Source: Sulfurimonas sp. SAG-AH-194-I05 (lineage in GTDB: Bacteria > Campylobacterota > Campylobacteria > Campylobacterales > Sulfurimonadaceae). From it: a stretch of 64,000 bases of DNA. The first letter of the stretch is position 1; each line of letters begins with the position of its first letter. Shown here in pieces: positions 21,100-32,025 of the stretch. The translations under genes and the position numbers were made by a program. The DNA is taken from positions 1-64,000 of the forward strand of contig NZ_JAEMVA010000001.1 of assembly GCF_029215955.1 (NCBI RefSeq), read 5' to 3'. Below the pieces are notes generated by a model. That model searched no databases, was not told the origin of the DNA, and worked only from the letters and a program-made list of their open reading frames with translations.

Positions 21100-21618
21100 A
21101 TGAGAGATTTAATATACGAAGTTATGACGGACTATGCTAATATAGTTATATTTATTCATGTAATGAGTGCTGTCATCTGGGTTGGGGGTATGGTTGCTCT
21201 CTTTGTGATTACAAGAAGTGCGCATCCTCGTGTTTCAGTTGAAAAAAGACTAGCTGGTAGAGCTTCTTTAATAAAAAAATATTTTAAGTTTTTAGCATTC
21301 TTTATAACAACATCTGCCCTTAGTGCATTATTTATGGCACTTGGATATAAAGATAATGCGATAGATACGCAAGGGTTTATATTAGACGCTAACAGTATGG
21401 AAATTTATAGACATATAACAATGAAAATAAGTATTTGGATAGCAATGGTTATGAATATGCTTTTAATGACTTGGATAATTACAAAAGCACAAAGTGAAGG
21501 ATGCTCTGCTACTAAAGCTACTGACTGCATGTGGACAGTCAATAGTTTTTTATTACCTGTAAATATAATAATGGGCACTGTAGCTATTTACATTGGTATA
21601 ACCATCAACGCATATTAG
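21100..21618 (+). CDS. four-helix membrane protein, CopD-like
   Basis: A 172-residue protein with about four membrane segments. The first holds IFIHVMSAVIWVGGMVALF, a histidine/tryptophan signature seen in CopD-type and related heme- or copper-associated proteins. A second conserved-looking histidine is in IYRHITMKI. It precedes the caa3 oxidase cluster, so a role in metal or heme supply is plausible but not shown. Confidence 0.6.
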   Translation: MRDLIYEVMTDYANIVIFIHVMSAVIWVGGMVALFVITRSAHPRVSVEKRLAGRASLIKKYFKFLAFFITTSALSALFMALGYKDNAIDTQGFILDANSMEIYRHITMKISIWIAMVMNMLLMTWIITKAQSEGCSATKATDCMWTVNSFLLPVNIIMGTVAIYIGITINAY

Positions 21619-21624
21619 ACATTA

Positions 21625-22065
21625 ATGCAAGAATTAGTACAAAATTTAGAAAAACGTCGCCTCATTGCTGCTAGTGTTATTTGTATATTTGCTCTTTTAG
21701 CCTTTATTGTTGATAGCACTTTTACAATAACACCTCTCAATTATTTTGAGGGAAAATATAATCAACATTTCATAATGGCTTTACTTATATATAAGCTTAT
21801 AGAACTCCCCCTTTTATATTTATTTCTTTTAAAAAGATCATTAAATCTTTATAGCTTAAATAAAGATAATGATAAATATGTAACACAACTTAAAAAACGC
21901 TCAAAAATACTTTATTTTTTGATTCCTCAAGGTAATACTATCTTTGGTATTATTGCGTACAAGCTTAGTGGAGATATATACTGTTTTTTTCTTTTCTCAT
22001 GTATCGCTCTCATCGCGTTATATAGTGTAAATCCAAAAATAATAAATACTAATAGTAATCACTAA
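21625..22065 (+). CDS. small membrane protein of unknown function
   Basis: Not recognised. The 146-residue protein has about four hydrophobic segments (near 14-32, 50-70, 95-112 and 118-135). Its basic loop (VTQLKKRSKILY) suggests a cytosolic face. It begins 7 bases after the CopD-like gene and so is likely co-transcribed, ahead of the SCO and oxidase genes. An accessory role in oxidase assembly is only a guess from position. Confidence 0.6.
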   Translation: MQELVQNLEKRRLIAASVICIFALLAFIVDSTFTITPLNYFEGKYNQHFIMALLIYKLIELPLLYLFLLKRSLNLYSLNKDNDKYVTQLKKRSKILYFLIPQGNTIFGIIAYKLSGDIYCFFLFSCIALIALYSVNPKIINTNSNH

Positions 22066-22162: not shown

Positions 22163-22978
22163 ATGAAAAAATTGTTACTTGCTTTGTCTTTAATTATTAG
22201 CTTTGCTAATGCAACTACATTAGGTATACAAGAAAAATTAGGTGATGTGGTCCCATTAGACTTAACCTTCTTAGATGAAAATGGGAAGAGTGTTACTCTT
22301 AAAAAATTGATGAATGGAAAACCTACAATTCTTACATTAAACTATTTTAGATGTGCGGGAATTTGTACACCGCAATTAAATGACTTAGCACATATGCTTG
22401 GAAAGTTAGATTTAGCAGAAAATACAGACTATAAAGTATTAACTGTTTCTTTTGCGGAAGATGAAACACCTGCTTTAGCAGCAGCAAAAAGAAAAAATCA
22501 AATTAATGCTATTGGTAGAGATTATATAGCAGATGCATGGCATTTTGTTATTGGTGAGAATAATTCTTCTCATGTTCTTGCTGATAAGGTTGGATTTACT
22601 TTTGAAAAAACCGTTACAAAACTCGGAAAAGTTGATTACATTCATGCAGCAGCTTTGATTATGATCTCACCTGAGGGAAAAATTACTCGTTATTTAAACG
22701 GAATTGAACAATTACCTTTTGATGTGAAAATGGCTCTAATAGAATCTTCTAACGGAACAGTTGGCCCCACTATAGCAAAAACACTTCTTTATTGTTTTTC
22801 ATACGATCCTGAAGGAAGAACCTATATTTTTGTATGGGAAAAAGTTGCAGCTACTGTAATGCTATTTATTGTATTGGCATTTTTTATCTCACTTCTTAGA
22901 ATGGGAAGAAAAGATGATGGTCGAGAGATAGCTCCAAGAAGAGATGTAAAAGAAGAAGAAACAACAGAAGAAAAGTAA
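22163..22978 (+). CDS. SCO1/SenC-family copper chaperone
   Basis: SCO proteins are thioredoxin-fold copper chaperones for the CuA site of cytochrome oxidase. The 271-residue protein has a cleavable-looking signal (about 1-18), the copper motif CAGIC (about residues 67-71) and the third ligand histidine in DYIHAAALIMI. Unusually, a membrane helix lies at the C-terminus (about 228-247) followed by a charged tail, whereas most SCO proteins are anchored at the N-terminus. It precedes the caa3 operon. Confidence 0.88.
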   Translation: MKKLLLALSLIISFANATTLGIQEKLGDVVPLDLTFLDENGKSVTLKKLMNGKPTILTLNYFRCAGICTPQLNDLAHMLGKLDLAENTDYKVLTVSFAEDETPALAAAKRKNQINAIGRDYIADAWHFVIGENNSSHVLADKVGFTFEKTVTKLGKVDYIHAAALIMISPEGKITRYLNGIEQLPFDVKMALIESSNGTVGPTIAKTLLYCFSYDPEGRTYIFVWEKVAATVMLFIVLAFFISLLRMGRKDDGREIAPRRDVKEEETTEEK

Positions 22979-23144: not shown

Positions 23145-24806
23145 ATGAGTAAAAGTTACTTAGATTTAGATCAAACTCACTGTGCCATAGGTCACCCTAA
23201 AACGGCATTTTGGCAGTGGATGTTGACAGTCGATCACAAGCGTATAGGGTTAATGTACGCAGCAGTTATATTTACATTCTTTTTTGTTGCAGTGGCTACA
23301 GCTTTTGCAATGAGACTAGAGTTATTCGCACCAGGTGCACAATTTATGGATGGAGATACATTTAACCAAGCGTTTACGCTTCATGGTGTTATTATGATTT
23401 TCCTGTTCATTATTCCTGGTGTTCCAGCTGTATTTGGAAATATTGTTATGCCATTAATGATTGGAGCTAAAGATGTGTCTTTCCCAAGACTTAACTGGTT
23501 TACATTCTGGTTATACATTACTGGTGCTTTAGTAGCTCTTAGCTCTTTATGGAGTGGAGAAGGTTTTGCTGATACTGGTTGGACATTTTATGCACCATAT
23601 AGTTTAACTACAAATACAAATGTTATTACAACACTTGTTGCTGCATTTATTCTTGGAATGGCATCAATTCTTACAGGTCTTAACTTTCTTGTAACTATTC
23701 ACCGCCTTCGTGCTCCAGGTATGGACTTTTTCAAAATGCCTTTATTTGTATGGGGAATTTACGCAACAGCTTGGATTCAACTTTTAGCAACTCCAGTAAT
23801 TGGTATTACTCTTGTTCTTGCAATTTTAGAAAAGTATTTCGGAATTGGTATTTTTGATCCATCTAAAGGTGGAGATCCAGTACTTTTTGAACATTTATTT
23901 TGGATTTATTCTCACCCTGCTGTTTATTTAATGATTCTTCCAGCATTTGGTATTATGTCTGAAATTATTCCAACTTTTTCAAGAAGAGAAGTATTTGGTT
24001 ATAGAACTATTGCACTTTCATCTGCGTCAATTGCGGGTATTGGTTATTTAGTATGGGGTCACCACCTTTATACTTCTGGTATGGCTGACACTGCAAAAGT
24101 TATTTTCTCATTCTTAACATTTTTTGTTGCTATTCCAACAGGTATTAAGTTTTATGACTGGGTATTTACAATGTACAAAGGTAAAATTATTCTAACTACT
24201 CCAATGCTATGGGCTCTTGGTACAATCATCACTTTTACAATTGGTGGATTAACAGGTGTTACTATTGCTATGGTTGGTGTTGATATTCACTTACAAGATA
24301 CCTACTATACAGTTGCACACTTTCACTATGCTATGTTAGGTGGAGTTGTTTTCTTACTATTTGCTGGGCTTCACTATTGGTTCCCACTTATGTTTGGTAG
24401 AATGTACAATGAAGGTCATGCAAAATTTGCATTTTATTTAAACTTTATTGGTTTTAATGTTCTTTGGTTCCCAATGTTTATCGCTGGTTACTATGGTATG
24501 CCTCGTCGTTATTTTGACTACTTACCTGAATTTGAAATTTATCATCAAATTTCTTTTGTTGGTGCTGTTATTTTTATTACTGGTTTAATTACAATGTTTT
24601 ATGTACTTATTCGTGCAATTAAAAATGGGGAAAAAGTTGGTCCAAATCACTGGAATGCAACTACACTAGAGTGGCATTTACCAACATCACCACCACCATT
24701 AGAGAACCACACAAAAGTTCCTTATGTTGACTTTATGCCATATGAGTATCATCATGGGCAACCAGTTGTAAAATTTGATTACGAAACAATGAAAAGGATT
24801 GACTAA
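23145..24806 (+). CDS. ctaD: cytochrome c oxidase subunit I, A2-type heme-copper oxidase
   Basis: Subunit I holds the low-spin heme, the high-spin heme and CuB and reduces O2 to water while pumping protons. The 553-residue, 12-helix protein has the heme ligand His80, CuB ligands His257, His306 and His307, and His392 and His394 (VAHFHYAMLGG). The key segment reads YSHPAVY (255-261): the Glu of A1 enzymes (GHPEVY) is replaced by the Tyr-Ser pair that defines A2 oxidases. Tyr261 is the likely His-Tyr crosslink. It heads a ctaD-ctaE-coxIV-ctaC-ctaB operon and overlaps ctaE by one base (TAATG). Confidence 0.95.
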   Translation: MSKSYLDLDQTHCAIGHPKTAFWQWMLTVDHKRIGLMYAAVIFTFFFVAVATAFAMRLELFAPGAQFMDGDTFNQAFTLHGVIMIFLFIIPGVPAVFGNIVMPLMIGAKDVSFPRLNWFTFWLYITGALVALSSLWSGEGFADTGWTFYAPYSLTTNTNVITTLVAAFILGMASILTGLNFLVTIHRLRAPGMDFFKMPLFVWGIYATAWIQLLATPVIGITLVLAILEKYFGIGIFDPSKGGDPVLFEHLFWIYSHPAVYLMILPAFGIMSEIIPTFSRREVFGYRTIALSSASIAGIGYLVWGHHLYTSGMADTAKVIFSFLTFFVAIPTGIKFYDWVFTMYKGKIILTTPMLWALGTIITFTIGGLTGVTIAMVGVDIHLQDTYYTVAHFHYAMLGGVVFLLFAGLHYWFPLMFGRMYNEGHAKFAFYLNFIGFNVLWFPMFIAGYYGMPRRYFDYLPEFEIYHQISFVGAVIFITGLITMFYVLIRAIKNGEKVGPNHWNATTLEWHLPTSPPPLENHTKVPYVDFMPYEYHHGQPVVKFDYETMKRID

Positions 24807-25561
24807 TGTCTTCTCACGCATATGTAGCAGAAATCGCAACAGATCGCGATGGTAATGAACACGTAGTTCAAGGTTGGCAAGATGACATGTACGGTGCAAA
24901 ACTAGGGTTTTGGCTGTTCATGTTTACAGAGGTACTTATGTTTGGTGCTATGTTTATGACGCTTACATATTATATGATGCTTCATGAAGCGGATTTTGTG
25001 CATGCTTCGGCATCTTTAAATAGATACCTCGGTGGTTTTAATACTGTAGTTCTTCTTATCTCTGCATTAACAATGGGTTTAGGCCTATTGAAAATGCGTC
25101 ATGGAGATATCAAGGGTGCGAAGACTATGATCTGGGCTACGATTGTTTTAGCTTTTTTATTCTTAGGAGTAAAAGGTGTTGAGTGGTCTTTAGAATATAG
25201 CCATGGTGTTTTTCTAGGTCTTGATGCTTTACAACCAGGTAATGAACATTCCAAACCATTTGGTCAAATACTATTCTTTGGAATGTATTTTACTATGACT
25301 GGTATTCATGGAGTTCATATTCTTGGAGGTATTGGTATTATGTTATGGTTACTTAAACGTATTAATTCTGGTAAAGTTACTCCAGAACACCATATATTAC
25401 ATTTTAACATTGCACTTTATTGGGACCTTGTTCACCTTATTTGGGTATTTGTTTTTCCTTTCTATTATATGATGGGAGCAGGTACAGAAATGGATACAGC
25501 AACTTTAAGTAGTACTATTGAAGCAATTTCACACCTAGGAGGATCTAATGAGCACCACTAA
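24806..25561 (+). CDS. ctaE: cytochrome c oxidase subunit III
   Basis: A 251-residue membrane protein of the COX3 family. It has about five to seven helices, KLGFWLFMFTEVLMFGAMF in the first, the conserved FFGMYFTMTGIHGVHILGG block and the terminal HFNIALYWDLVHLIWVFVFPFYY. It stabilises subunit I and its proton uptake. The ATG overlaps the ctaD stop, and the 3' end overlaps the subunit IV gene by 14 bases, so translation is coupled throughout. Confidence 0.93.
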   Translation: MSSHAYVAEIATDRDGNEHVVQGWQDDMYGAKLGFWLFMFTEVLMFGAMFMTLTYYMMLHEADFVHASASLNRYLGGFNTVVLLISALTMGLGLLKMRHGDIKGAKTMIWATIVLAFLFLGVKGVEWSLEYSHGVFLGLDALQPGNEHSKPFGQILFFGMYFTMTGIHGVHILGGIGIMLWLLKRINSGKVTPEHHILHFNIALYWDLVHLIWVFVFPFYYMMGAGTEMDTATLSSTIEAISHLGGSNEHH

Positions 25562-25904
25562 TCTTGGAAGCTATAAAGAGGCACAATCAGGGTATATAAA
25601 AATACTTGTTGGTTTATTAGTTCTAACAACAGTTACTTTTGTTCAGCCACACATGTTCTTAACAGATATGAACCTTGGTATTCAATTATTTATCGGTGTA
25701 GTAAAAGCATATTTAATTCTTGCGTACTATATGCACTTAAAAGGTGAAACACAAATCATTTGGTTTGCAGGTTTTTCATTATTTATTGTTGCTGTTTTCT
25801 TTATAATTGTAATTGGTTTCGATGTTGCTAACTTCCAGTATATGGATGAAAGTCATATTACACAACACATGGATGCACCTCATGCATCACATGCAACACA
25901 CTAA
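25548..25904 (+). CDS. cytochrome c oxidase subunit IV (CoxIV/CyoD-like)
   Basis: A 118-residue protein with three membrane helices (about 17-37, 45-65 and 73-93), as in bacterial small subunit IV, including YLILAYYMHLKGE. The C-terminus is histidine-rich (HITQHMDAPHASHATH), which could bind metal. GGAGG precedes the ATG inside ctaE. It helps assemble or stabilise the oxidase. Confidence 0.85.
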   Translation: MSTTNLGSYKEAQSGYIKILVGLLVLTTVTFVQPHMFLTDMNLGIQLFIGVVKAYLILAYYMHLKGETQIIWFAGFSLFIVAVFFIIVIGFDVANFQYMDESHITQHMDAPHASHATH

Positions 25905-25913
25905 GGAGTCTCT

Positions 25914-27113
25914 ATGTTAGACGGATTTGTTGGCGCAAGTGCAGCAACTTTTGCTGCAGATGTAGACAATGCATTTTGGATTAATTTCTGGGTATCTATT
26001 GTTTTAGGGTTATCAGTTTTAATTCCAATGTTTTATTTTGTTTGGAAATATCGTGAAAGTAATGTTAAAGATGAAGAAATTGAAAACTTTACACATCACA
26101 CTGGTTTAGAAATTACTTGGACACTCGTTCCTACTGTTATGCTTATGGTTTTATTCTGGTTTGGTTATGACTCAATGAGAGTTTTAAGAACTATGCCTGC
26201 AGCTGATCAAAGTATCACTATTCAGGTTGAAGGTTCAAAATGGAAATGGAGATATGAGTATCCAGCAAATGCTAATGGTGTTGTTCATAAATTAGGTGGA
26301 GCATTTATTAAGCCTAAATATGATGAAAATGGAAAACTTATTGAAAAAGGTACAATGGCTAAATCAGCACTTTATGTACCAGTGAATACAAATATCATTT
26401 TAGAGATGACAGCTCCAGTTGATGATGTGATTCATGCATTCTTTGTTCCTGCTTTTCGTATGAAAGAAGATGTTGTTCCAGGTCGTGTAACGAAGCAGTG
26501 GTTTAATGCTACAACAGTAGGCGAATATGATGTTGAGTGTGCTGAGTACTGTGGTACTGATCACTCATATATGTACTCTAGAATTGTTGTACTTCCAAAA
26601 GCTGAATATGATGCTTGGTTTAACAGTAATGATGATACACCAAAAGGTAACTACGATAAATCAGGTTCTGCACTCTTACAACAACATGGATGTAAATCTT
26701 GTCATGCAACGCTAAGCGATGCAGTATTTTTTGGACCTACTCTTAAAACAAGAGTATTAACGAAAGAACAAGTTCTCGATGTAATTAATCATGGTCAAGA
26801 CACACTTGGTTATGCAATGGGCGCAATGCCAGCTGGCTTAGTTACTGGTAAAGATGCGCAAGAGATTGCAGCATATGTAGCTGCTGGTATGAAAGGCGAG
26901 CAACCTGCTTCATTTGCAGCATGTTCTTCATGTCATGGTGAAGATGGTAAAGGTCAATACGGTACGTCTCCAAGTCTTGTAGATTACGATGTAGATCTTT
27001 TACGTAATGTGTTAAAGCATGGTAAAAAAGGTAGTATGGGTAATATGCCAAAATTCCCTTATATAACAGACGAAGACGTTTCAGCTATAGCAGAACATCT
27101 TAAAAGTTTATAA
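25914..27113 (+). CDS. ctaC: cytochrome c oxidase subunit II with two fused cytochrome c domains
   Basis: Subunit II accepts electrons at CuA. The 399-residue protein has two membrane helices, the aromatic patch GSKWKWRYEYP, and an intact CuA site: His174, Cys209, Glu211, Cys213, His217 and Met220 (CAEYCGTDHSYM). Fused at the C-terminus are two heme-c domains, CKSCH (260-264) and CSSCH (337-341). caa3 enzymes usually carry one such domain, and two make this a diheme form. The gene order I-III-IV-II is also uncommon. It overlaps ctaB by one base. Confidence 0.94.
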   Translation: MLDGFVGASAATFAADVDNAFWINFWVSIVLGLSVLIPMFYFVWKYRESNVKDEEIENFTHHTGLEITWTLVPTVMLMVLFWFGYDSMRVLRTMPAADQSITIQVEGSKWKWRYEYPANANGVVHKLGGAFIKPKYDENGKLIEKGTMAKSALYVPVNTNIILEMTAPVDDVIHAFFVPAFRMKEDVVPGRVTKQWFNATTVGEYDVECAEYCGTDHSYMYSRIVVLPKAEYDAWFNSNDDTPKGNYDKSGSALLQQHGCKSCHATLSDAVFFGPTLKTRVLTKEQVLDVINHGQDTLGYAMGAMPAGLVTGKDAQEIAAYVAAGMKGEQPASFAACSSCHGEDGKGQYGTSPSLVDYDVDLLRNVLKHGKKGSMGNMPKFPYITDEDVSAIAEHLKSL

Positions 27114-27979
27114 TGATTAAAGATTTTATTGTAGTAACAAAGTTTGTTCTTTCTTTCGCTGTGAGCCTTTCGGCTCTCTTTGCCTATATAATGGCAAAGG
27201 GTGAAGTAGGAGCAGATATGTTTCTTGCAACTTTTGCCGTACTTCTTGTAGCTATGGGGGTTTCAACTCTCAATCAGGTGCAAGAGTACAAAGAAGATGC
27301 TTTAATGGAAAGAACAAAACATAGACCCATTGCTTCTGGAAAAATGTCTCCTCTAACTGGTATTATAATCGCGGCAGTACTCGTTATAGCTTCTCTTTTT
27401 TTAATATATGACTTACTTGGACTTACGGGTATTAATTTATTTTTATTTTCATTTGTATGGTATAACTTAGTGTATACACCATTAAAAAAGAAAAGTGCTT
27501 TAGCTGTTGTTCCGGGTGCAATACTAGGTGTGATACCTCCAGCAGTTGGTTGGTTAGTTGCTGGTCATTCTCTACTAGAAGTTGAATTTTATGCCTTAGG
27601 GTTATTTTATTTTATTTGGCAAATACCACATTTTTGGTTACTTGTTATGTTGCATTATGGTGGGTATAAAGATGCAGGATATCCTACAGCAATGCGTTTA
27701 TTTGGGCAAAATTCACTTCAAAGATTAACTTTTGTTTGGTTGATTTTAACACTCTTTACGGGTATTTTTATGGTGAGTATATTTAATCCAACTAGTCTAA
27801 TAATTAATATACTTTTAGTTGTAACAGGTATTTTTGGTTTTATTAGTAGCTTGAAATTATTAAATAAAAATTTTGAACTCCCAGATGCACGTAGTGTATT
27901 TTGGAAAATTAACCTTGCCTTTTTAGGAACTATTATTCTCATTAGCATTGATGCAATGCTAGATTTTAATCCACTTTAG
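27113..27979 (+). CDS. ctaB: protoheme IX farnesyltransferase (heme O synthase)
   Basis: CtaB/CyoE adds a farnesyl group to heme b to make heme O, the precursor of heme A. The 288-residue membrane protein has the UbiA-family first motif NQVQEYKEDALMERTKHRPI (Asp-rich site) and the later FYFIWQIPHFWLL and HYGGYKDAGYPTAMRL blocks. It is last in the caa3 operon. No heme A synthase (ctaA) is in the window, so the heme type of this oxidase cannot be settled here. Confidence 0.93.
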   Translation: MIKDFIVVTKFVLSFAVSLSALFAYIMAKGEVGADMFLATFAVLLVAMGVSTLNQVQEYKEDALMERTKHRPIASGKMSPLTGIIIAAVLVIASLFLIYDLLGLTGINLFLFSFVWYNLVYTPLKKKSALAVVPGAILGVIPPAVGWLVAGHSLLEVEFYALGLFYFIWQIPHFWLLVMLHYGGYKDAGYPTAMRLFGQNSLQRLTFVWLILTLFTGIFMVSIFNPTSLIINILLVVTGIFGFISSLKLLNKNFELPDARSVFWKINLAFLGTIILISIDAMLDFNPL

Positions 27980-28041: not shown

Positions 28042-28548
28042 ATGTCACAATACACATTAGAAACTATTTTATCGACTGTAGCAAAAGAGAATGGGAAAAA
28101 AAGAATTTTGTATAATTTTGGACCAGTTGGTGGATGGAATAGTACTATCATAGGTCTTTTATTCTTATCATTACCATTTTTAGAATTTGCGGCTTTGTTT
28201 AATCCATATGCATTTGAATACTTGGGAATAGCACAAAGTATAATATTTTTTATTGTCTTTTTATCAATGATTATGATTTTAGTAATAGGATTAATTTTTG
28301 CATTTAATACGAATCTTATAAGAAAGATTACTCCATCATGGAATGAATACTTCCCAAATCAAGATTTATCGATGGTCATGTCATCTGGCATAACACCATA
28401 TAGTGACTTTTTTACAATGTACAAATCTATTTTAGTACATGCAGAAGAAAAAAATGTACATGAAGAACTCCAAAAAGCATTTGTAATAATGGAAAAAGAC
28501 AATGAAGAGTTACTAAAAGCAATGAATAGAGATAAAAATAAAATATAA
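28042..28548 (+). CDS. two-helix membrane protein of unknown function between the oxidase operons
   Basis: Not recognised. The 168-residue protein has two hydrophobic segments (about 33-55 and 62-88) flanked by a soluble N-terminus and a charged helical C-terminus (about 120-168, acidic and lysine-rich). AAGGAAA precedes the ATG. It lies between the caa3 and cbb3 operons on the same strand, so a link to either is positional only. Confidence 0.6.
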   Translation: MSQYTLETILSTVAKENGKKRILYNFGPVGGWNSTIIGLLFLSLPFLEFAALFNPYAFEYLGIAQSIIFFIVFLSMIMILVIGLIFAFNTNLIRKITPSWNEYFPNQDLSMVMSSGITPYSDFFTMYKSILVHAEEKNVHEELQKAFVIMEKDNEELLKAMNRDKNKI

Positions 28549-28674: not shown

Positions 28675-30156
28675 ATGGAGAATCGTCCATTAGAGTATGA
28701 TTATTCTGTTAGTAAATTATTTATTTACAATACTTTATTCGTTGGTTTTATAGGTATGTTTGTTGGTACTTATATTGCGTGGGAAATGGCATTTCCTTCA
28801 CTAAATGTTATTTTTGGTGATGGTGCTATTGCTGAATACACGAACTTTAGTCGTTTAAGAGTACTACACACAGATTCAGTTATTTACGGGTTTGTTTTAA
28901 GTGGTGTTTGGGCTACTTGGTACTATGTGGGACAGCGCGTTCTTAAAGTATCAATGGCTGAATCAAAAACATTAATGGTAATTGGTAAATTACATTTTTG
29001 GATTTACTTTGCATCATCAGCAGTTATTGTTGTTTCATTATTTATGGGAATAACTACTTCTAAAGAGTATGCTGAGTTTGAGTGGCCTCTTGATCTTGGT
29101 ATCACTGTTATTTGGTTACTTTGGGGTGCTAGTATTGCTGGTCTTATTGGTTTGAGACGTGAGAAGACTTTATATATCTCTCTTTGGTATTATATAGCTA
29201 CTTTCTTAGCAGTTGCTATGCTTCACTTACTAAATAACTTAGAAATTCCTACGTATTATGCGTCAGGTGGAATCGGGGCTTGGTCACATTCAGTTTCTAT
29301 GTATGCAGGTACAAATGATGCACTTGTTCAGTGGTGGTTCGGTCATAATGCCGTGGCATTTGTTTTAACTACACCAATTGTAGCAATTATTTATTACTTT
29401 TTACCAAAAGAATCAGGTCAAGCTATTTATTCATATAAATTATCATTACTTTCTTTTTGGGGTTTAATGTTTATTTATTTATGGGCTGGTGGTCATCACG
29501 TTCTTTTCTCAACTGTACCAGACTGGGTTCAAACTATGGGTTCAGTATTTTCAGTTATTTTAATTCTTCCTTCATGGGGTTCTGCGATTAATATGCTTCT
29601 TACAATGAAAGGTGAGTGGCAACAAGTTGCTTCATCTCCAATTATTAAGTTTATGGTTCTTGGTTCTACTTTTTACATGTTCTCAACATTAGAAGGTCCT
29701 ATTCAAGCGATTAAATCTGTTAATGCTATTGCTCACTTTACTGACTGGATTATCGGTCACGTTCATGATGGTGCTCTTGGTTGGGTTGGATTTACGATTA
29801 TTGCTGCGATTTATCATATGATTCCTCGTATGTTTAAACGTGAAATTTATTCTAAAAAACTTATGGCTACACAATTCTGGATTCAAACACTAGGGATTGT
29901 TTTATACTTTACTTCTATGTGGATTGCTGGAATTACGCAAGGTATGATGTGGCGTGCGCATGATGAATTTGGTAACTTAGCATATTCATTTATTGATACT
30001 GTAACTGTTTTACACCCTTACTTTATTATCCGTGCTGTTGGTGGTACTCTGTACTTAATTGGTTTTGTTATGTTTATTTACAATATTTATAAAACTATGT
30101 CTGCTCGTCAGGTTGAAGAATCTGAGCTACAAAATGCAACGCCGATGGGCGCTTAG
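28675..30156 (+). CDS. ccoN: cbb3 cytochrome oxidase subunit I
   Basis: CcoN is the catalytic subunit of the high-affinity cbb3 (C-type) oxidase used at low oxygen. The 493-residue membrane protein carries the heme ligand His65 (RVLHTDSVIYG), WWFGHNAVAFVLTTP (CuB histidine), GGHHVLFS and DWIIGHVHDGALGW. Length is typical. GAGGAGAATAT precedes the ATG. It begins the ccoNOQP operon. Confidence 0.97.
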   Translation: MENRPLEYDYSVSKLFIYNTLFVGFIGMFVGTYIAWEMAFPSLNVIFGDGAIAEYTNFSRLRVLHTDSVIYGFVLSGVWATWYYVGQRVLKVSMAESKTLMVIGKLHFWIYFASSAVIVVSLFMGITTSKEYAEFEWPLDLGITVIWLLWGASIAGLIGLRREKTLYISLWYYIATFLAVAMLHLLNNLEIPTYYASGGIGAWSHSVSMYAGTNDALVQWWFGHNAVAFVLTTPIVAIIYYFLPKESGQAIYSYKLSLLSFWGLMFIYLWAGGHHVLFSTVPDWVQTMGSVFSVILILPSWGSAINMLLTMKGEWQQVASSPIIKFMVLGSTFYMFSTLEGPIQAIKSVNAIAHFTDWIIGHVHDGALGWVGFTIIAAIYHMIPRMFKREIYSKKLMATQFWIQTLGIVLYFTSMWIAGITQGMMWRAHDEFGNLAYSFIDTVTVLHPYFIIRAVGGTLYLIGFVMFIYNIYKTMSARQVEESELQNATPMGA

Positions 30157-30171
30157 TAAAAGGATTATAGT

Positions 30172-30864
30172 ATGTTTCATTGGTTAGAAAAAAATCCGTT
30201 CTTTTTTGCATTAGCTGTTTTTGTAACTATTGCATTTGCAGGTTTAGTTGAAATTGTTCCAAACTTTGCGCAACAGTCTCGTCCTCTTATAGGTACGACT
30301 CCTTACTCTACTTTAGAGTTAGCTGGTCGTCATGTATATATTAAAAATAGTTGTAATGCGTGTCATTCACAACTTATTCGTCCTTTTAAATCTGAAACTG
30401 ACCGTTATGGTGATTATTCACTTAGTGGTGAGTATGCGTATGATAGACCTTTCCTTTGGGGTTCTAAAAGAACTGGTCCAGACTTAATGCGTGTTGGTAA
30501 CTATAGAACTACTGATTGGCATGAAAACCACATGTGGGATCCTGAAAAAGTTGTACCAGGTACAATTATGCCAGCCTACAGATGGATGTTTGTTAATAAC
30601 ACTGATATAGATACTGCATATGCTGAAATGCTAACAATTGAAAAATTCTTTGGTGTTCCTTACAATAAGCCTGTTCCTATGAAAGATGGAACAACTAAAA
30701 TTATTAAAATGGGTGCTACGCTTAATGAAGCACGTATGATGGCTTTAGAAGAAGCAATTACGATTTCTCATGATATGAAAAATCAAGATGTTATTGATGC
30801 AGTTGCATTAGGAAGAATTCCTGAAATTGTTGCGTTAATAGCATATATGAATAGTTTAAAGTAA
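30172..30864 (+). CDS. ccoO: cbb3 cytochrome oxidase subunit II, monoheme cytochrome c
   Basis: A 230-residue membrane-anchored cytochrome c with one N-terminal helix (about 9-30) and a single heme site CNACH (61-65). RTGPDLMRVG follows, and Met-containing loops (GTIMPAYRWM) can supply the axial ligand. It passes electrons from CcoP to CcoN. It starts 16 bases after ccoN. Confidence 0.96.
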   Translation: MFHWLEKNPFFFALAVFVTIAFAGLVEIVPNFAQQSRPLIGTTPYSTLELAGRHVYIKNSCNACHSQLIRPFKSETDRYGDYSLSGEYAYDRPFLWGSKRTGPDLMRVGNYRTTDWHENHMWDPEKVVPGTIMPAYRWMFVNNTDIDTAYAEMLTIEKFFGVPYNKPVPMKDGTTKIIKMGATLNEARMMALEEAITISHDMKNQDVIDAVALGRIPEIVALIAYMNSLK

Positions 30865-30876
30865 TAGGAATATAAA

Positions 30877-31080
30877 TTGGGTATTGCTGAATTACAATCG
30901 TATGGCTTCTTAGCAGTAACTGTCTTTTTGACAGTTATTTTATACGCTTATATATATCATTTATATAAGAACAGAAAAGATGTTGACGGTCACGACTATG
31001 AAGAATATAGCAACCTAGCACTACATGACGATATAGCAGATACTCTCGTAAATGCTAAAAATCGTGATACAGAGAAATAG
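30877..31080 (+). CDS. ccoQ: cbb3 oxidase small subunit CcoQ
   Basis: A 67-residue protein with one membrane helix (about 7-29) and an acidic C-terminus, in the normal place between ccoO and ccoP. The start is TTG at 30877. CcoQ stabilises the complex. Confidence 0.85.
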   Translation: MGIAELQSYGFLAVTVFLTVILYAYIYHLYKNRKDVDGHDYEEYSNLALHDDIADTLVNAKNRDTEK

Positions 31081-31092
31081 GAGAAGAGATAT

Positions 31093-32025
31093 ATGAATAA
31101 GATTTATCTTTGGGGATTTATCGTAACAGCTGCAATGCTTGGATTCACTTACATGTCAGTAATTGGTTCCAAGGGTGGTTTAAATGGTGATATTGTAAAT
31201 ATTTTAACTGCAGCAGCTGCAGTAGCACTTGTACTAATTACAGTATTTACAGTTATCAAATATGTTCGTCAAATGCAAGTCGATACTGCTAGTGGTGAAC
31301 TTGCAAATGAAAAATGGGATGATATTGGGGAGTATTTAAATCCAATTCCAACGGGTTGGGGAATTTTATTTTTACTCACTATGGTTTGGGGTATGTGGTA
31401 TTTTTTAATCGGTTATCCAGTAAACGGATATTCTCAAATTGGTGAGTATAATGAAGACGTAGCAGCGCATAATACTAAGTTTGAAGCAAAATATAAAGAT
31501 ATTACTGGTGATAGACTTATTGAAATGGGTGAGTCAGTATTTCTTGCAGAATGTAAAGTTTGTCATGGTTTAACAGCAGATGGAATTGACGGTACTGCAT
31601 CAGATCTTAATGTAAGACTTGAAGCTAATGTTGTTAAATATCACATTTTACATGGTTCAAATTCAAAACTAATGGGTACAGAAAACCCTATGCCTAATCG
31701 TTATGGTATTATGAATGCAAACACGGATTATTCTCCCATTTCAGATGCTGAAATTGATGTAGTTTCTGAGTATGTTGCAAACGGTATGACAGGCGAAGGT
31801 GCTGATGTTTTTGCTGGTGCTTGTGCTGCATGTCATGGTGCTGATGGTAAAGGTCAAGCGTATGTAGCTCCAAATATTGCTACATTTGATATAGGACTTG
31901 TTGTTACTATCTTAAATCATGGTAAAAGAGGTGTTATTGGTGGTATGCCAGCATTTGACAGACTTAATACTAAACAAAAAGAAGCAGTTGGTGCATACAT
32001 TACTAGCTTAAGTGCTAAGGAGTAG
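31093..32025 (+). CDS. ccoP: cbb3 cytochrome oxidase subunit III, diheme cytochrome c
   Basis: A 310-residue protein with two N-terminal membrane helices (about 5-25 and 34-56), a further segment near 88-108, and two heme-c sites, CKVCH (154-158) and CAACH (244-248). The linker W-D-DIGEYLNPIPTGW is the usual CcoP signature. It receives electrons from soluble cytochrome c or the bc1 complex. Confidence 0.96.
   Translation: MNKIYLWGFIVTAAMLGFTYMSVIGSKGGLNGDIVNILTAAAAVALVLITVFTVIKYVRQMQVDTASGELANEKWDDIGEYLNPIPTGWGILFLLTMVWGMWYFLIGYPVNGYSQIGEYNEDVAAHNTKFEAKYKDITGDRLIEMGESVFLAECKVCHGLTADGIDGTASDLNVRLEANVVKYHILHGSNSKLMGTENPMPNRYGIMNANTDYSPISDAEIDVVSEYVANGMTGEGADVFAGACAACHGADGKGQAYVAPNIATFDIGLVVTILNHGKRGVIGGMPAFDRLNTKQKEAVGAYITSLSAKE

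Follow-up and report, generated by a model that had tools for sequence, protein, structure and literature searches.

Which hemes does the A-type oxidase of this sulfur-oxidising Sulfurimonas bind, and from where did it obtain the two-heme tail of its subunit II? The operon lies in a stretch of 64,000 nucleotides, the window, which was analysed as a whole. A preliminary description took its product for a caa3 oxidase of the A2 type, in an uncommon gene order and possibly acquired. That an A2 oxidase was acquired in Sulfurimonas is not new because it was published in 2023 for U. Sulfurimonas pluma; the main text of that report labels the enzyme caa3, proposes a role in oxygen-saturated or oxic water and gives about 70% identity to the enzyme of Sulfurovum sp. 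AR (PMC10066037). What may go beyond the published finding is the assignment of heme O/B, the spliced CcoP-like tail and the exchange of tails. In the literature searched, which comprised papers available without subscription, no description of the heme O assignment or of tail exchange was found.

The features are collected in Table 1. Five intact and contiguous ORFs on the plus strand, coding for subunits I, III, IV and II and for CtaB, occupy positions 23145-27979, and ccoNOQP follows; a complete A-type oxidase thus stands beside cbb3, as originally described. According to the ORF list of the window all genes from SCO to ccoNOQP form one compact plus-strand run. The conserved block exceeds the five ORFs at both ends. 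It is opened by SCO, whose place ahead of subunit I is kept at almost every Campylobacterota locus with a sufficiently long contig, and includes the small membrane protein downstream. The order I-III-IV-II-ctaB was correctly recognised, yet its supposed rarity does not hold within the clade: SCO-I-III-IV-II-ctaB is kept throughout wherever contigs are long enough and is therefore not unusual there. Distant A2 operons from Paraburkholderia and Aquisphaera have the order SCO-II-I-III-IV instead.

Table 1. Features of the oxidase region, in positions of the window; residue numbers refer to the respective protein.
Feature	Position	Strand	Basis
SCO1/SenC copper chaperone, C-terminal TM	22163..22978	+	PF02630, E 6e-9
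Subunit I (CtaD), A2-type	23145..24806	+	PF00115 (COX1), 502 bits; ligand and channel residues
YSHPAVY motif, residues 255-261, A2-defining	23907..23927	+	Alignment with E. coli CyoB (WGHPEVY, 282-288)
Subunit III (CtaE)	24806..25561	+	PF00510, E 3e-10
Subunit IV (CtaF)	25548..25904	+	PF03626; TIGR02229 over cut-off
Subunit II (CtaC): 2 TM, CuA, diheme tail	25914..27113	+	TIGR02866 over cut-off
CuA ligand motif CAEYCGTDHSYM, residues 209-220	26538..26573	+	Alignment with solved structures of subunit II
Class A diheme tail, residues 236-399	26619..27110	+	Identity to tail classes; CcoP-like
Heme c site 1, CKSCH, residues 260-264	26691..26705	+	Motif
Inferred splice point, about residue 277/278	26742..26747	+	Similarity switches from monoheme-tail-like to CcoP-like
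Heme c site 2, CSSCH, residues 337-341	26922..26936	+	Motif
Heme O synthase CtaB	27113..27979	+	PF01040; TIGR01473 is best match, below its cut-off; co-occurrence with subunit I
Small conserved membrane protein, linked to ctaB	28042..28548	+	No Pfam match; same position in most clade loci
ccoNOQP, resident cbb3 oxidase	28675..32025	+	Second PF00115 match; ORFs

Several observations concern the surroundings of these operons. The small membrane protein has 168 aa and in most clade loci stands directly behind ctaB, even where ccoN is not adjacent; possibly an assembly factor has gone unrecognised here. Upstream of SCO (21100-22065) two further small membrane proteins without a Pfam match are encoded which are conserved at many Sulfurimonas and Sulfuricurvum oxidase loci. 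Certain Sulfurimonas operons (L060, L073, L076, L078, L081, L110, L118) carry two SCO-type copper chaperones in tandem ahead of subunit I. The distant A2 operons mentioned above reside on Paraburkholderia and Aquisphaera plasmids (L189:1-8539, L190:1-8583), directly behind genes for NrfD, DUF3341 and cytochrome c which look like an alternative complex III; next to the operon in the window, genes of this kind are absent. Elsewhere in the own genome, on contig C41 (L003:531-1904), a third protein of the heme-copper family, NorB-like by sequence, is followed by a NorD-like gene, and the cell seems to keep a nitric oxide reductase.

The A2 assignment is well supported. Subunit I is 40% identical to CyoB of E. 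coli bo3, and in the alignment the heme and CuB ligands H80, H257, H306/H307 and H392/H394 are kept. The K-channel residues T332/K335, the cross-link Tyr261 and D110/N117 are present. YSHPAVY replaces the glutamate motif of A1 enzymes, with Ala259 aligned to E286 of CyoB. Thus the six histidine ligands, the cross-linked tyrosine, the K-channel lysine and YSHP in place of the glutamate motif, by which A2 oxidases are recognised, are all found, and subunit II supplies the CuA ligands with H174 and the CuA motif.

The name caa3 fares differently. Taken strictly, it denotes an oxidase with heme A whose subunit II bears a fused heme c domain; the latter is present here, with two CxxCH sites. Formation of heme A requires the heme A synthase CtaA. 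No CtaA (PF02628) above the cut-off was detected in the own genome (85% complete), in 135 genomes of the genus, in 25 Campylobacterota genomes that carry the oxidase or match it in part, in 8 further Campylobacterota carriers, or in 397 sampled genomes of the class Campylobacteria. With the same profile CtaA was recovered from distant control genomes and from 9 of 11 A2 owners outside the Campylobacterota. The two without a match, L113 and L114, are the nearest relatives outside the phylum; their subunits I are 57% and 56% identical to that of the window, and ctaB likewise follows subunit II. The subunit II ORF of L113 has only about 200 aa and no heme c site. CtaB, on the other hand, is present in 16 of the 397 class genomes, every one a carrier of subunit I, and absent elsewhere in the sample; in the seventeenth carrier (G465), where CtaB was not matched, subunit I sits at a contig edge. 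Because CtaA is absent and CtaB is confined to carriers of subunit I, heme O appears as the end of the pathway and paired with the oxidase. The cell can make heme O, not heme A, and a subunit I with heme B and heme O would therefore be the most economical reading. Bacillus oxidases are able to use heme O instead of heme A (PMC9145763). With no CtaA gene above the cut-off in the own genome, its relatives or the class genomes, the sequence lends the heme A label no support, and caa3 is probably a wrong name for this oxidase.

Could it be a true caa3 oxidase after all, supplied with heme A by a synthase that is non-homologous, highly diverged or otherwise unrecognised? The relative from U. Sulfurimonas pluma was published under this name, at least in the main text (PMC10066037), and a few genomes contain sub-threshold fragments of PF02628. 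These fragments are short, stay below the cut-off and are missing from most carriers including closed genomes, whereas the profile detects CtaA in the distant controls and in most other A2 owners. Arg57 of subunit I, which matches the formyl-binding arginine of heme a enzymes, would also suit a caa3 enzyme. It was dropped as a marker of heme A as it does not discriminate: E. coli CyoB has the equivalent R80, with heme B at that site. A true caa3 oxidase consequently appears decidedly improbable, and we retain heme B and heme O as the probable complement of subunit I.

Different pictures emerge when the two parts of subunit II are compared separately. The CuA core (residues 1-234) is 59-79% identical to that of the window across the clade and 91% in the nearest relative. 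The tails fall into unlike classes, i.e., class A as in the window, class B and monoheme. The window tail is 72-87% identical to most class A tails and 24-31% identical to the other classes. In class A the inter-heme spacing is 76-78, with two entries at 83; in class B, which consists of two similar domains, it is 81-83. An AlphaFold model (pLDDT 74, pTM 0.47) recovers the subunit II folds, the placement of the tail being unreliable; a model of this moderate quality does not enter the argument.

In Desulfovibrio and Shewanella diheme tails reportedly arose when a monoheme tail was duplicated in tandem. Were this so here, the likeness to CcoP might simply be that of any cytochrome c. For class B tails, which occur in the same clade, duplication is the case: the halves are 53-77% identical, clearly a plain tandem duplication by sequence. 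As a source of class A tails tandem duplication was rejected as their halves are only 22-33% identical (23% in the window). Moreover, residues 278-399 of the window tail share 45-56% identity with CcoP and about 20% with monoheme tails, and the inter-heme spacing of 77 equals that in many CcoPs. Duplication thus has very little chance of being the correct explanation of the window tail.

The kinship with CcoP can be narrowed down. The window tail is 45-50% identical to the nearest Campylobacterota CcoPs. In the tree class A tails and Campylobacterota CcoP are split from Pseudomonadota CcoP with a support of 100/100. Class A tails are sister to one CcoP subclade (95/86), and a topology that keeps all CcoP together was not rejected (AU p=0.34); nesting of the tail inside Campylobacterota CcoP is supported but not decisive. 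Searches run without a positive control of their own retrieved no counterpart of the tail from plasmids (at 1e-4), nor from 168 Bacteroidota and 144 Bdellovibrionota genomes at the thresholds used. A like search of Campylobacterota matched nearly all genomes via CcoP. The likely source of the tail is the family of resident cbb3 CcoPs, judging by similarity. Two more specific candidates were discarded. CcoP of the cell itself, considered as the immediate donor, is not the closest: it is 35% identical over 83 residues, compared with 45-50% for CcoPs of other families, and free diheme cytochromes (L191-L193, L201, L202) are less similar and lack the GPxL start.

The beginning of the tail has another affiliation. 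Over residues 257-277 it matches the tail of monoheme sister oxidases; resemblance to CcoP sets in at about residue 278. Residues 267-277 are 52% identical to monoheme tails versus 8% to CcoP, residues 278-334 51% to CcoP versus 20% to monoheme tails. Because similarity switches within heme domain 1, this suggests that the window tail is a splice of a monoheme-tail start and a CcoP-type diheme remainder, the signal for which comprises 11-20 residues. In one relative (L104) the tail is CcoP-like along its entire length.

Operons with subunits I that are 94-97% identical may differ in the tail, which is CcoP-like, tandem-diheme or monoheme. Mapping the three tail classes on the subunit I tree requires at least 14 changes (16-24 in 200 shuffles), on the CuA-core tree 9. 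A pair of loci, L073 and L081, illustrates the situation. SCO (94%), subunits I (97%), III (92%) and IV (93%) and ccoN (94%) are nearly the same, and identity in subunit II falls from 80-100% (residues 1-90) over 60-83% (91-210) to 17-35% from residue 211 onward. From this steep drop it follows that the exchanged tract would comprise the periplasmic portion of subunit II, both CuA and cytochrome c. Several further operon pairs display the same drop. By these comparisons the tail of subunit II is a swapped module, repeatedly exchanged between relatives. Alternatively, the diversity of tails may reflect ancient paralogues or assembly chimeras and not recent exchange. Most relative loci are from MAGs, so some swaps could be chimeras, and the cores of class B and monoheme proteins partly cluster by class. 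Yet the swaps recur in many contigs, tails switch at 94-97% subunit I identity in several genera and data sets, and each locus has a single operon in otherwise near-identical synteny. We regard paralogues or chimeras as unlikely to account for the pattern, and repeated exchange is the reading we adhere to.

The distribution of the oxidase is patchy. Relatives of subunit I exist in 17 of the 397 class genomes, and a survey of Sulfurimonas yielded subunit II relatives that include the CuA core, full-length or cut at contig ends, in 8 of 72 sampled genomes. Named loci are from Sulfurimonas, Sulfurovum, Sulfuricurvum and Arcobacter. Sulfurimonas and Sulfurovum share 83-90% identity in subunit I and 68-74% in ccoN from the same contigs. 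These distances fit a transfer between families. Tree topology was abandoned as proof of transfer between the two genera, the test giving AU p=0.29. The earlier suggestion of acquisition is supported: presence is patchy, and across the two genera subunit I is closer than ccoN.

Taken together, the operon would encode a cytochrome c oxidase of A2 type that contains CuA and belongs to a clade scattered across Campylobacterota, with low-spin heme B and with heme O and CuB in place of heme A. Electrons would pass from periplasmic cytochrome c via the two-heme tail to CuA and onward through the low-spin heme to the heme o3/CuB center, where O2 is reduced; protons would be pumped along the D- and K-routes of A2 enzymes. 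With its mosaic tail, a monoheme-tail-like start and a CcoP-type diheme module of Campylobacterota cbb3, the acquired oxidase could draw on the same electron donors as cbb3, presumably at high oxygen, and the periplasmic half of subunit II would have been exchanged repeatedly among relatives. Motifs, operon, CtaA absence, the pairing of CtaB with CtaD, the modular tails and their kinship to CcoP are the parts legible in the sequences themselves. We consider this account as a whole, a heme O/B A2 oxidase with a mosaic CcoP-type tail and repeated exchange, to be quite probable. With somewhat less assurance, at slightly better than even chances, we propose that the clade filed as caa3 consists of heme O oxidases with a swappable electron-entry cassette, and that in the window the splice of monoheme tail and CcoP connects the enzyme to the native electron supply. 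If true, heme A is dispensable for the enzyme thought to allow Sulfurimonas a life in oxygen-saturated water, and the expected spectrum, the annotation and possibly the oxygen kinetics change. Further, nature would then provide pairs of near-identical oxidases differing mainly in the electron-entry domain, by which the fitting of an acquired oxidase to the cytochrome c of its host becomes testable.

How does this oxidase compare with known systems? The oxidase of U. Sulfurimonas pluma is from the same genus, of A2 type, and also stands beside a resident cbb3; in the main text, where the caa3 label is used, neither CtaA nor heme O nor the make-up of the tail was found (PMC10066037). Thermus thermophilus caa3 (PDB 2yev) shares the YSHP motif of A2 enzymes and a cytochrome c fused to the CuA subunit II. 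It differs in having one heme c, fused subunits I and III, and heme A. E. coli cytochrome bo3 has a ctaB/cyoE homologue beside the oxidase genes, i.e., heme O, and likewise no CtaA over the cut-off, but oxidises quinol, lacks both CuA and heme c, and has the A1 glutamate E286. Campylobacterota CcoP shares residues 278-399 of subunit II and the inter-heme spacing; in the window, unlike in cbb3, this module is fused behind the CuA domain of an A-type oxidase. The ccaa3 or cc(o/b)o3 oxidase of Desulfovibrio vulgaris reportedly belongs to the A2 type, has two hemes c in subunit II and carries heme O/B without heme A. Set against the description of that enzyme, the window oxidase likewise combines an A2 subunit I, two heme c sites in subunit II and absence of CtaA. 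For the Desulfovibrio tail an origin by duplication has been described (PMC3899249), whereas the window tail is CcoP-like and its halves, at 23% identity, are not those of a tandem duplication. Going by its genes, the window oxidase should carry heme O/B like the D. vulgaris enzyme, with an electron entry of other descent.
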